A stretch of 64,000 bases of DNA, taken from assembly GCA_028285755.1 (NCBI GenBank), contig JANQOQ010000008.1:1147399-1211398 (forward strand). The letters run 5' to 3'. The notes under the pieces were generated by a model. That model was not told the origin of the DNA. It worked only from the letters and a program-made list of their open reading frames with translations, and did not search any database. The position numbers and the translations under genes were made by a program. How positions within the stretch are numbered: position 1 is the stretch's first letter; every line of letters begins with the position of its first letter. Positions 3,568-7,937 of the stretch are shown here, piece by piece. Source of the stretch: Puniceicoccaceae bacterium. GTDB lineage: Bacteria; Verrucomicrobiota; Verrucomicrobiia; Opitutales; JAFGAQ01.

Positions 3568-4086
3568 ATGTCTAGTGTTTTTACGATCAGCGAACAGGAA
3601 TTGGCTGACATGATGGAAGCTTCCATGCGTGACGTTTTTTCAACCATGGTAAAGTCGAGTATCAAGCAACATCCTGTAGACCAATCCAAGCGCGTCAGCC
3701 AAATCATTGATGAGCTTTTTTCCAAGGATGTAGATCTGGTTGTAACCGATATCGGATTCATCGGGGAAATTTTTGGCTTTGTTTATATTTTTATGGAAGA
3801 GCCTACTGCTGAGTTCCTATACAGTAAGCTAAATACACATAATGAAGACAAAAGCGGGAATGAAATCGTCTACGACACTGCAGCTGAGTTTACCAATATC
3901 GCTATAGGAGGCTTCAAAAACCAGCTCACGCATTGGGGATACCCCTGCCAATTGACGCTGCCTTCAGTGATTAAAGGTCGGGGGGTATCGGTCGAGGCGA
4001 TATCCGGATGCAAAAAGCAGATGTTTCAGTTCAAGACCCGAGGGAAGTCGATACTAGCAGTCCTGATTATCAAAGAGGATAACTAA
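3568..4086 (+). CDS. CheX-like chemotaxis phosphatase family protein
   Basis: A 172-residue cytoplasmic protein of the CheC/CheX/FliY fold. The single phosphatase motif E-x-x-N is present as AEFTN (E107, N110) in a helix, followed by GGFKNQL and then CQLTLPSVIKG, which matches the 'ISLPTVV-G' strand of CheX. CheX removes the phosphoryl group from CheY-type response regulators. No CheA, CheY or receptor gene is nearby, so the partner is unknown; a regulator of pilus motility or another two-component system is possible. Its last four bases overlap the stop of the convergent E2 gene. Family assignment rests on motif reading, not on a search. Confidence 0.78.
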   Translation: MSSVFTISEQELADMMEASMRDVFSTMVKSSIKQHPVDQSKRVSQIIDELFSKDVDLVVTDIGFIGEIFGFVYIFMEEPTAEFLYSKLNTHNEDKSGNEIVYDTAAEFTNIAIGGFKNQLTHWGYPCQLTLPSVIKGRGVSVEAISGCKKQMFQFKTRGKSILAVLIIKEDN

Positions 4087-5711
4087 ATCAGACGCAGCTG
4101 ATCGTTACCGTTGATCCAATCTGGATCAGTTCCCGGCTCCAGATTTTCGATATCCGATTTAAGTAGCTCGATAAATTTGGCTGCGGTGACTCCATCAATC
4201 GCGCGGTGATCACAGGCGAGCGTAATATTCATCATGTAGCGGATGCCCAGGAAATCCTCGGTGGGGACGATCTTTTTCTGTATTTCACCCACAGCCAGAT
4301 TACAGGTTTGCGGGGGTACAATCACAGGTATGAACTGGCTTACCCCATACATCCCCAGGTTAGAGATCGTGAATGTAGCATCGTAATCGATTACCACCTT
4401 TGTAGTGTTCGCGAGCTCCGCATTTTTTTTGACCGCTTCGGATACTTGCAAGAGCGATTTATGGTAGACGTCTGGTACCACGGGCATGACAACGCCTTCG
4501 TCCACGGAGGTGGTAACGCCCACATTGATAGAGCGTTTCAAAATTAAGCGGTCCTTTTTAACGTGGGCATTCATTTCGGGCATTAATGCCAGCGCATGGC
4601 CTACAGACTTTACCAGCATATCGGTAACAGTCACTTTGCCTTTGGTGTGCGCATTGTAGGCCTTTCGCCATTCCTTTGCTTTCGTAAAATCAACTTCGGC
4701 AAACAAGTAGAAATGAGGGATTTCCTTTTTGCTGAGCGCCTGGGTTTCGGCATATTTCTTCTTTACCGAGTTAAAGGGGATAATCAGGTCTTCACGCTTA
4801 GCCAGATGGAACTGGATGGAGATTTCCTCATAATCAGGGAAGGGCACGTCACTATCTTCAGCTTTATCGGAGGTGCTCGCGATCTCTTCTTTCGGAACTT
4901 CCTCGGGTTGCTTATCTTCATTTTCGCTAACCGGTTCAGAAGTTACATCGGCTACCGGTTCCATGAAATCCTGATCTGAATTTTCAGGTTCTACCGGGGT
5001 TTGCGAAATTTCCAGATTCGGCAGCTCTGCGAGGTTAGCTTCTGAATCCGGCTCTGGCTCATCCCACTTAATTTTAAGGGGAGTTTTTTCAGCTTCTTCA
5101 GTGACTTCGGTTGCTTTGTTTTCGGTTTTGGTAGCGCTGGGTGGAGGCCCTTCGTTAACGGCGTTTTCGACGTCGATGTAGAGAATTTTTCCATCCTGCC
5201 CTGTGCCCGTAAGTTGGGTATAGTCGATGCCAAACTTTTCCGCCAGTTTCTTAGCAGCCGGGCTTATGCTGACTGATGCTCCTTCATTTGAGGGTTCTTC
5301 AGTAGGCTCAGCCGATTCCTCGGACGTAACTTCAGGAGAATCTTCAACCAATGCTTCTTCTGCTACCTCCTCTTTAACTTCTTCGACAATGGGGGCTGGT
5401 TCTTCGAGGGCTTCGTCAATGGGCAGGGGTAAAGTGTCGTCATCCGGTTCAGGGGATGCACCGTTCAAAGAATCCTCGGGAGAGTCGAGTACGGCTATGG
5501 GTTCATCAAAATTGATACGATCATTCGCGTTTTGACTGATCTTACTCAATACACCCTCCTCTTCGGCAGCAACTTTAAACGAGCCCAAGGGAGTTTTGAT
5601 AATCGCCAGGATGTCACCGGTTTCAATTTTGTCTCCTTCCTGACGCTCCCAGGAAGTAATGGTGGCTTCGTCAAACTCGGGACCGGGTTTTGGCAAGCGA
5701 ATTTCAATCAT
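4083..5711 (-). CDS. 2-oxo acid dehydrogenase E2-type acyltransferase with atypical lipoyl domain
   Basis: A 542-residue protein with E2 architecture. A lipoyl-like domain spans residues 1-77, then an acidic Glu/Pro/Ala-rich linker with a peripheral-subunit-binding domain (about 147-187, ISPAAKKLAEKFGID then GTGQDGKILYIDVENA), a second linker, and the catalytic acyltransferase domain (about 300-542). The catalytic signature DHRAIDG and the FTISNLGMYG strand are intact. E2 normally passes acyl groups from E1 to CoA through a lipoyl-lysine. Here the DKA lysine is replaced: the hairpin reads IIKTPLGSFKV, with Leu42 where lysine should be; K39 and K46 flank it. No E1 or E3 gene is adjacent. The fold is clear; the substrate, and whether it is lipoylated, are open. 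Confidence 0.88.
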   Translation of the reverse strand: MIEIRLPKPGPEFDEATITSWERQEGDKIETGDILAIIKTPLGSFKVAAEEEGVLSKISQNANDRINFDEPIAVLDSPEDSLNGASPEPDDDTLPLPIDEALEEPAPIVEEVKEEVAEEALVEDSPEVTSEESAEPTEEPSNEGASVSISPAAKKLAEKFGIDYTQLTGTGQDGKILYIDVENAVNEGPPPSATKTENKATEVTEEAEKTPLKIKWDEPEPDSEANLAELPNLEISQTPVEPENSDQDFMEPVADVTSEPVSENEDKQPEEVPKEEIASTSDKAEDSDVPFPDYEEISIQFHLAKREDLIIPFNSVKKKYAETQALSKKEIPHFYLFAEVDFTKAKEWRKAYNAHTKGKVTVTDMLVKSVGHALALMPEMNAHVKKDRLILKRSINVGVTTSVDEGVVMPVVPDVYHKSLLQVSEAVKKNAELANTTKVVIDYDATFTISNLGMYGVSQFIPVIVPPQTCNLAVGEIQKKIVPTEDFLGIRYMMNITLACDHRAIDGVTAAKFIELLKSDIENLEPGTDPDWINGNDQLRLI

Positions 5712-5913
5712 AAGATTCTAGCAAAAAAATATTTAACTAAACTGCAATCCTGGATTTATTTAGTCTAATAGGTTAGCATGACTAAAATTCATGTAAGGAA
5801 AAGGTGATTTTTACCAGTAATGCACTTCTTAGATTGAAACATTGCTCTTTTTCATATTGCTGATGCTATTCATAGGAATTGTTCTATAAATCTAATGAAG
5901 AAGTAGTTATTTG

Positions 5914-6738
5914 ATGTTAGCACCAAAATATCTTGTAAGAAGATTATATGAATTAGCGCGTAAGCCCAACGAGCGAAAATTATGGGTACAACGTCGAAAA
6001 GACAGAAAGGCGTTAGAAGAACTAATACATCAAGAGCGCTTCAAATTCAATACCTTGAAGATAGGTGGGTTTAAAATCGATTATGCGGATGCCTTATCGA
6101 CTTATTATGCCTACAAATCGATTTTTGAGGATGAGATTTATAAGTTTGATACAGAGAAGCGCAGCCCGCACATCATAGATTGCGGGGCGAACATTGGTCT
6201 GGCTGTGCTTTATTGGGATACCTTGTTTGAGAACCCTTATATAACTGCTTTTGAACCGGACCCCAATATTTATAAGGTCTTAAATGCCAATGTAGAGCGG
6301 TTCAGCTCAGCTAATATTGCTCTATATCAAAACGCGGTATGGGTAGCTGAAGAGCCGCTGAAATTTATACAAGATCATGCAGATTGTGGCCAAATTGGTG
6401 CTTCAGAGACCTCAATTGACATTCAAGGAATTCGTTTGAGGTCGTTTCTTGAGAAATATCCTCAAGAGATTGACCTTTTAAAGATGGATATTGAGGCCGC
6501 AGAAACCGACGTGCTGATAGACTGTCGCGGTGCTCTGGATAAGGTGAATCGAATTTTTGTCGAATACCATTCCATGATTTCCAGGAAACAAAACTTAGAG
6601 AAATTGCTGGATGTTATTATCGATGCAGGTTTCAGGGTACATATTCAACCTGAGTTAGTTTCTAATAAACCCTTCTTGTATCTTCCGGATAATTATGGAA
6701 TGGATATGAGGCTAAATATATTTGGATTAAGGGCATAA
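5914..6738 (+). CDS. FkbM family methyltransferase
   Basis: A 274-residue SAM-dependent methyltransferase of the FkbM family, which O-methylates sugars or lipids in surface polysaccharide and natural-product pathways. The SAM-binding motif I (HIIDCGANIGLAVLYW), the acidic loop (ITAFEPDP) and the FkbM-typical LLKMDIEAAETDVL are all visible. The ATG at 5914 is preferred; an in-frame TTG lies directly before it. The last base of its stop is the first base of the next gene's ATG (TAATG), so it is translationally coupled to the glycosyltransferase. The pair is visibly AT-richer than the genes to its right, which may indicate acquisition. The methyl acceptor is unknown. Confidence 0.9.
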   Translation: MLAPKYLVRRLYELARKPNERKLWVQRRKDRKALEELIHQERFKFNTLKIGGFKIDYADALSTYYAYKSIFEDEIYKFDTEKRSPHIIDCGANIGLAVLYWDTLFENPYITAFEPDPNIYKVLNANVERFSSANIALYQNAVWVAEEPLKFIQDHADCGQIGASETSIDIQGIRLRSFLEKYPQEIDLLKMDIEAAETDVLIDCRGALDKVNRIFVEYHSMISRKQNLEKLLDVIIDAGFRVHIQPELVSNKPFLYLPDNYGMDMRLNIFGLRA

Positions 6739-7937
6739 TGCTGATCCAGCACTTAAACACTTATAATACGGGAGGAGCGGCCAGAGCTGCATTGCGGCTG
6801 CATCTAGGTTTGTTAAGGCAAGATATCGACTCTCGTTTTGCAGTGAAAACTAAGAACTTTGAGGATAGTTCAGTTTTGGAAGTACCTTTTGTAGATAGTC
6901 GGAACCCGCTCATAAAAAAAATAACAAGACAATTTGGGCGAACCAAGCGGATATCTACACAATCCCCCTACAATAATGGGCGATCCCATTACAGTTTCAA
7001 ATCCTTTAGACAGCTGAGCACTCCGGATATCTACCATTTTCATTGGCTGGCCAAGTTGGTCGATTGGTCATTACTACCGAAGTTTGCTAAGTCGGCACCG
7101 ATTATTTGGACACTTCATGATATGCAGCCCTTTAGTGGTATATGGCATTACCAACCCTATGAAACAGAAGTTACAACTGAACTCGAACGATTGGACGCTA
7201 AAACATTAAAGTTTAAGCTCAAGGTCATTCAATCGATTGCTGAAGATCGGGTGATAATCGTCTCGCCGTCAAAGTGGTTATACGAGGAATCTTCCCAAAG
7301 CGAAGTTTTCAGCAAATTTAGACATTTTCGGATACCTTATGGCTTAGATACTGATGTATTCAGGCCTCATGATAAATTGGTGGTTCGAAGGAAACATAAT
7401 TTGCCCTTGGATCTACCTATTGTAGGGGTAATGGCTGATCGTTTAGAGGACCCTCGAAAAGGGCTTAAATTATTCAGCGAGGCGATCAATCGCTGCAAAA
7501 CACAAAATCTAGGAATTCTCACGATTGGGGAGAATTTGGAACAATGGAGGTTGAGTAAGAATCATTATGATTTGGGCTATATCAATGAAGATCATAACTT
7601 AGCTGAAGTATACTCTGCGTGCGACCTTATGGTAGTGCCATCGCTTCAAGATAACTTACCGAACGCAGTATTAGAGGCCATGGCCTGCTCAACCCCTGTC
7701 TTAGGTTTCGACGTAGGGGGGATCCCCGATATGGTAAGGCCAGGAGAGAATGGATGGTTAGTTCCGCACAGTAATATTGAGGCGTTGGCCAATGCAATGG
7801 ATCACGTATTTGCAGAAGACCAGCTCATTGAAAAATTTGGCCAAAATGCCAGAAAAATCATCCTGCAGGATTATTCTCTTGAAAGACAGGCGACACAATA
7901 CATCGACTTATACCGTCAAATTCTTAATGTTAACTGA
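6738..7937 (+). CDS. Glycosyltransferase family 4 protein
   Basis: A 399-residue GT-B glycosyltransferase of the GT4 group, probably adding a sugar to a surface polysaccharide or glycan. The N-terminal domain has the acceptor-side glycine motif (YNTGGAARAALRL) and the TLHDMQPFSG segment. The C-terminal donor domain has VPSLQDNLPNAVLEAMAC and STPVLGFDVGGIPDMV, the E-x7-E-type motif of retaining nucleotide-sugar transferases. No membrane segment is seen. It is coupled to the FkbM gene by a one-base overlap, so the two likely modify the same glycan. Donor and acceptor sugars cannot be read from the sequence. Confidence 0.92.
   Translation: MLIQHLNTYNTGGAARAALRLHLGLLRQDIDSRFAVKTKNFEDSSVLEVPFVDSRNPLIKKITRQFGRTKRISTQSPYNNGRSHYSFKSFRQLSTPDIYHFHWLAKLVDWSLLPKFAKSAPIIWTLHDMQPFSGIWHYQPYETEVTTELERLDAKTLKFKLKVIQSIAEDRVIIVSPSKWLYEESSQSEVFSKFRHFRIPYGLDTDVFRPHDKLVVRRKHNLPLDLPIVGVMADRLEDPRKGLKLFSEAINRCKTQNLGILTIGENLEQWRLSKNHYDLGYINEDHNLAEVYSACDLMVVPSLQDNLPNAVLEAMACSTPVLGFDVGGIPDMVRPGENGWLVPHSNIEALANAMDHVFAEDQLIEKFGQNARKIILQDYSLERQATQYIDLYRQILNVN

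Follow-up and report, generated by a model that had tools for sequence, protein, structure and literature searches.

The minus strand of the 64,000-nucleotide window encodes a full-length E2-like protein (4083–5711, 542 amino acids) with a lipoyl-type domain, a peripheral-subunit binding domain (PSBD), and a catalytic domain, in which the lysine that receives lipoate is absent. We give about an even chance to the reading that this protein, here called the pseudo-E2, is a neofunctionalised E2 paralogue, a subunit without carrier function that is part of, or attached to, a dehydrogenase core. The observations behind this are that the whole group lacks the lysine, that fold and domains are retained, that the lysine-less domain is under selection, that the catalytic His has been lost more than once, and that there is no spare E1.

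Pfam profiles match the 542-residue protein at residues 3–75 (Biotin_lipoyl), 149–182 (E3_binding), and 310–525 (2-oxoacid_dh), all above the cut-off; none of the NCBIfam equivalog cut-offs is exceeded by it. The gene converges with a CheX-like gene on the plus strand (3568–4086), and the two ends share 4 bases (4083–4086 of the window). Coordinates of the features are given in Table 1.

Table 1. Features of the pseudo-E2 gene, in window coordinates, and the evidence for each.
Feature	Position	Strand	Evidence
Lysine-less E2-like coding sequence, 542 amino acids	4083..5711	-	Open reading frame; Pfam architecture; orthologues in 5/5 family genomes
Lipoyl-like domain, residues 1–76, without lipoyl lysine	5484..5711	-	PF00364, 43 bits; predicted beta-sandwich, pLDDT about 87–96; 60–79% identity between genera
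Codon TTG (Leu42) in place of the lipoyl lysine; four orthologues have Ile	5586..5588	-	Profile alignment; model turn between strands 34–39 and 44–48
Lys39, invariant in 5/5 orthologues; last residue of the pre-turn strand	5595..5597	-	Alignment and model
Lys46; Arg in two orthologues	5574..5576	-	Alignment
Linker 1, residues 77–148, acidic, fast-evolving	5268..5483	-	Low pLDDT; high nonsynonymous change
Peripheral-subunit (E1/E3) binding domain, residues 149–186	5154..5267	-	PF02817, 40 bits; G003 vs G001: 0 nonsynonymous / 7 synonymous changes
Linker 2, residues 187–290, acidic	4842..5153	-	Low pLDDT; fast evolving
Helix-containing segment FPDYEEISIQFHLAKREDLI, residues 291–310, preceding the catalytic domain	4782..4841	-	Helix 294–303; alignment
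E2 catalytic (trimer-forming) domain, residues 311–523	4143..4781	-	PF00198, 196 bits; Foldseek matches to E2 cores
FTISNLG motif, intact in G000; FTVTVME in G002, FTLFDLG in G003	4353..4373	-	Alignment
Active-site motif DHRAIDG, intact in G000; DSRAIDP in G002, DPRGIDG in G003	4191..4211	-	Alignment
C-terminal extension ENL..DPDW..GNDQLRLI; insertion with invariant DPDW, then hydrophobic end	4086..4142	-	Alignment

Codon 42 (5586–5588) reads CAA on the plus strand and TTG, Leu, on the minus strand, at the position where E2 lipoyl domains hold the lipoate-receiving lysine. The sequence-only reading had reported this replacement, a gapless alignment to normal E2 lipoyl domains, and Lys39 and Lys46 on either side, and was correct in all three. 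Among 47 E2 lipoyl domains aligned to a profile, all 42 ordinary E2s have Lys at this position and all five orthologues Ile or Leu, a contrast that reflects a single evolutionary event and hence carries no probability. The tip motif of all five orthologues is IIKT[PS][IL]GSF[KR]V, with Leu or Ile at the lysine site; the same reading had proposed checking whether Leu is conserved among relatives, and an aliphatic residue (Leu/Ile) was found in all five family members and lysine in none of them. The modifiable lysine at the beta-turn tip, by which a functional E2 is recognised, is absent (Leu42; Ile in four orthologues). To turn a Lys codon (AAA/AAG) into TTG, ATC, or ATT, two or more bases must change. 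With independent assemblies in agreement as well, sequencing error is excluded; judged from the sequences, the lysine-less lipoyl domain is real, and neither an error nor a product of decay. A search of the open-access literature returned nothing directly relevant on lysine-less lipoyl domains, which is not proof of novelty.

An orthologue is present in every sequenced member of the GTDB family, i.e., in five genomes of three genera (G000, analysed here, to G004), several of which are fragmentary; the G001 orthologue is cut by a contig end. The G004 orthologue is 60% identical over the full length, while those of G002 and G003 are more divergent and have longer linkers. Elsewhere in the order, a full-length profile found no orthologue in 368 genomes, and a lipoyl-domain profile none in 341; in the phylum and class samples there is none outside the family, the best matches being ordinary E2s with the lysine, and a related-loci search of genome contigs matched only distant Firmicutes E2s. 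Since all five family orthologues share the trait and it was found in none of the other genomes searched, it is an old, fixed feature of one bacterial family rather than a one-off.

Between genera, the lipoyl-like domains are 60–79% identical, compared to 43–67% for the catalytic domains. Nonsynonymous/synonymous counts in the close pair G003/G001, small as they are, amount to 1/4 (lipoyl domain) and 0/7 (PSBD), whereas the two linkers reach 32.5/20.5 and 50.5/34.5; the folded lipoyl-like domain and PSBD thus appear clearly more constrained than the linkers. In the AlphaFold2 model (25-sequence alignment, mean pLDDT 75), pLDDT is about 87–96 for the lipoyl-like domain, 80–92 for the PSBD, and mostly above 80 for the catalytic domain, and the linkers are predicted to be disordered. 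Residues 40–43 form a predicted beta-turn between strands 34–39 and 44–48, with Leu42 at the tip; the constant presence of a large aliphatic residue here (Leu/Ile) suggests a hydrophobic tip that acts as a binding surface. Foldseek matches the C-terminal half of the model to E2 cores, e.g., 7q5r_A (TM-score 0.89 on the target, rmsd 1.3).

The catalytic motifs F-T-[IV]-SNLG and DHRAIDG are both intact in G000 and G004, where the segment at residues 291–310 (FPDYEEISIQFHLAKREDLI) is also conserved in the alignment; it is less conserved in G002 and G003. The sequence-only reading did not foresee that two of the four orthologues have lost the catalytic His, which is Ser in G002 (DSRAIDP) and Pro in G003 (DPRGIDG); the latter motif comes from close to a contig end, in an assembly that is 77% complete, and is weaker evidence than that of G002. 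The tree groups G000 with G003 and G004 with G002 (support 99/77 and 99/87), and, as the two His-less orthologues are not sisters, His was lost twice, independently. Branch lengths are 1.07 and 0.77 in the His-less lineages and 0.21 and 0.13 in the His-bearing ones. In a fixed-topology comparison both the catalytic part and the N-terminus evolve faster in the His-less lineages, the catalytic part more so; a clean decoupling of rates, with the catalytic part relaxed and the N-terminus not, was therefore dropped. In every orthologue the conserved RxxIAxR helix, with which the catalytic domain begins, is changed. Because the catalytic His is gone in two orthologues, acyl transfer is unlikely to be the function shared by the family. 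The PSBD and DHRAIDG are intact in G000, as the sequence-only reading had stated, but its argument from an intact DHRAIDG applies to G000 and G004 and not to G002 and G003.

Two further departures from ordinary E2s concern the PSBD and the C-terminus. The PSBD, although present by PF02817 (40 bits), is more acidic than usual, with a net charge of -1 to -3 (+1 in G002), compared to a mean of +2 in ordinary E2s. An insertion with an invariant DPDW, ahead of LRLI, breaks up the usual C-terminal ENPxxxL (the end is cut in G003). In actinobacterial AceF, a three-residue C-terminal insertion blocks trimer–trimer contacts (PMC10415282), and the DPDW insertion may, by analogy, likewise alter assembly.

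In the tree, the pseudo-E2s are monophyletic (100/100), with a long stem (1.25), and lie next to the ordinary E2 of G669 (locus L059; 95/93), from another family of the phylum. This is the closest catalytic domain outside the family, although the G669 protein keeps the lysine (ESDKAS), has DHRGVDG, and has normal linkers. On its contig (L059:1-270, G669:C217), the gene follows closely on what looks like the last part of a class II fructose-bisphosphate aldolase gene, and the short L059 stretch shows no E1. A recent duplication of the genome's own PDH E2 was rejected as the origin, as the tree places that E2 among the PDH E2s of the order and the pseudo-E2 apart.

The genome holds LipB-LipA-E1alpha-E1beta-E2 (PDH) and E1-E2-E3 (OGDH) clusters, a 1042-residue E1-lipoyl-E2 fusion, GcvH, and two biotin-carrier-type proteins (LipA, LipB, and GcvH were identified by reading translations); the sequence-only reading had suggested looking for a second E2 or free lipoyl protein, and three other E2-type proteins are present. 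The pseudo-E2 is the fourth E2-type protein, and the same set of four occurs in G002, G003, and G004. An E1_dh search of the genome gives only three E1s above the cut-off, and two strong E3-type hits are present. An orphan E1 in need of the pseudo-E2 was considered and rejected: each of the three E1s has its own E2, so that no complex is left for the pseudo-E2 to serve alone. The fusion (L047:5311-8436; G000:C2, about 989310–992435) comprises E1_dh, Transket_pyr, Transketolase_C, a lysine-bearing lipoyl domain, and an E2 catalytic domain (DHRWING), but gives no match for a PSBD; similar frames of 1000–1140 residues are present in many of the order's genomes. Another E2 of the order (L015:1507-2859, G005:C107) has DHQAIDG instead of DHRxxDG and keeps the lysine; one TAA lies inside the match.

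In none of the family genomes is the pseudo-E2 gene next to an E1 or E3 gene or linked to any E2, which extends the earlier remark, confirmed at this locus, that E1 and E3 genes are not adjacent. The gene is divergent from a GH38-CoaE-Rho-PilT block in G000, G004, and G002. Its neighbours include a nitroreductase-family gene in G004 and G002, at matching places (L041:14242-14748; L042:8003-8548), and an rlmN-like gene in G003 and G001; in G000, FkbM methyltransferase and glycosyltransferase genes lie between the pseudo-E2 and GH38 (5911–7937 of the window).

As a non-carrier subunit, the pseudo-E2 would descend from a complete E2, on a branch other than those of the PDH and OGDH E2s in the same genome; the lipoyl lysine would have been lost once, ahead of the divergence of the family, and the catalytic His later, twice. 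The lipoyl-like domain and the PSBD would have been retained for binding, and the trimer-forming catalytic domain for assembly. The protein would enter or decorate an ordinary 2-oxoacid dehydrogenase core and tether E1 or E3 or tune the stoichiometry, with the lipoylated ordinary E2s doing the carrying, an arrangement that would work like the eukaryotic E3BP. Co-assembly with a dehydrogenase core, the identity of the partner complex, and a binding role of the hydrophobic tip are inferred. The loss of His in two non-sister lineages, with the remaining protein kept, favours this function; a core scaffold had been among the earlier suggestions, and remains the best reading given the constraint on the lipoyl-like domain and PSBD and the lack of a spare E1. 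Against it stand the missing genomic linkage to E1, E3, or any E2, and the G000 and G004 proteins, which have an intact active site and a slower-evolving catalytic domain than the His-less lineages. Further, the acidic PSBD may bind E1 or E3 in other than the usual way, and, by the same analogy with AceF, the insertion before the hydrophobic C-terminal end might prevent a normal core.

Among known systems, E3BP (PDHX, protein X) of animal and fungal mitochondria is likewise an E2 paralogue with a lipoyl-type domain, a PSBD, and a homologue of the catalytic domain, found beside an active E2, and has lost the catalytic His, as in G002 and G003, while G000 retains it. It is believed to be part of the E2 core and to recruit E3 (PMC10156792, PMC7494870), has viable lipoyl carrier domains in mammals (PMC7494870), and is described as a eukaryotic gene (PMC10156792). 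The pseudo-E2 differs in that it lacks the lipoyl lysine in all members, occurs in bacteria, has lost catalytic residues in only some members, and is only a putative binder of E3 or E1. In a phmmer search a mitochondrial E2 (8piu, 4e-49) scores above human protein X (6h60, 7e-32), and the tree contains no eukaryotic sequences. Tentatively, and with somewhat less than even confidence, the pseudo-E2 can be regarded as an independently evolved bacterial counterpart of E3BP, i.e., a carrier-dead E2 paralogue that would co-assemble with an active E2 core, its lysine-less domain serving as a docking or regulatory module and its hydrophobic tip replacing the swinging arm. Compared to an ordinary E2p of the alpha2beta2-E1 type, such as the PDH E2 of the genome (G000:C13:176746-178047), domain order and fold are the same, whereas the pseudo-E2 has [PS][IL]G in place of DKA, long acidic linkers, an altered start of the catalytic domain, the DPDW insertion, and a branch of its own.

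The sequence-only reading had also proposed that the core is served by another lipoyl protein. In this case the core would be active in G000, with acyl groups supplied by PDH or OGDH E2s through their lipoyl arms, and the His-less orthologues would represent later losses. Retained catalysis does fit G000 and G004, because their active site (DHRAIDG and FTISNLG) is intact and their catalytic domains evolve more slowly, on short branches; lipoylated E2s and lipoyl synthesis genes are present in the genome; and the E2 domain of actinobacterial OdhA, served by AceF, provides a precedent (PMC10415282; PMC10581250). Moreover, the H375A substitution reduces the efficiency of E. coli E2o only 54-fold (PMC8146983), so that His-less forms need not be fully dead. 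Service by another lipoyl protein is therefore possible in G000, but, with His gone in two lineages and FTISNLG also lost in G003, cannot be the group-wide function; the RxxIAxR helix is altered throughout, and there is no spare E1. The OdhA/KGD–AceF system does resemble the pseudo-E2 in having an E2 core without its own lipoyl group, another, lipoylated E2 in the genome, and, in AceF, an insertion near the C-terminus (PMC10415282). However, OdhA is an active enzyme fused to E1, with no lipoyl domain or PSBD, while the pseudo-E2 keeps a lipoyl-like domain, has no E1 domain or fusion, and is of doubtful activity, judging by its motifs; a core served in trans would not need a lysine-less lipoyl domain, and OdhA simply does without one. 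Overall, we consider such an acyltransferase unlikely, but it is the main rival and may still apply in G000 and G004.

Less probable again is an unrelated scaffold, in which trimers or larger particles would present the lipoyl-like domain and PSBD to partners other than dehydrogenases. The lack of linkage to dehydrogenase genes, the less basic PSBD, the modified C-terminus, and the conserved hydrophobic tip would all agree with such a scaffold; however, the PSBD and the catalytic fold are retained, and no operon partner is conserved across the three genera, the nitroreductase gene being adjacent only in genus g3, with different surroundings in g2.

A shifted lipoyl site at Lys39 (or Lys46), also raised earlier, is very improbable. 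Lys39 is invariant in 5/5 orthologues, but in the predicted structure it ends the preceding strand, three residues off the tip, and it stands where ETDKA has Glu; Lys46 is Arg in G003 and G001. In the Bacillus stearothermophilus lipoyl domain, the D41K/K42A mutant, with the lysine moved by just one residue, is not lipoylated (PMC6270654). Finally, a decaying gene or a sequencing error can be dismissed almost entirely, despite the catalytic residues lost in two orthologues, given long open frames under purifying selection in three genera, the GH38-CoaE-Rho-PilT synteny kept in two, agreement of independent assemblies, and Ile at this site in orthologues; conservation and the scarcity of nonsynonymous changes rule out a pseudogene and, together with the high-confidence predicted fold, bear out the earlier statement that the gene is not decayed.

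Bacteria are generally taken to recruit E1 and E3 via a single E2 type, and why cells evolve inactive E2 copies is an open question for E3BP (PMC10156792). A conserved bacterial E2 paralogue that cannot be lipoylated would provide an independent test of this question, and the staged loss, of the lysine first and of His then twice, makes the order of events readable. The pseudo-E2 of this family would show a lipoyl domain serving a purpose other than the carriage of lipoate.
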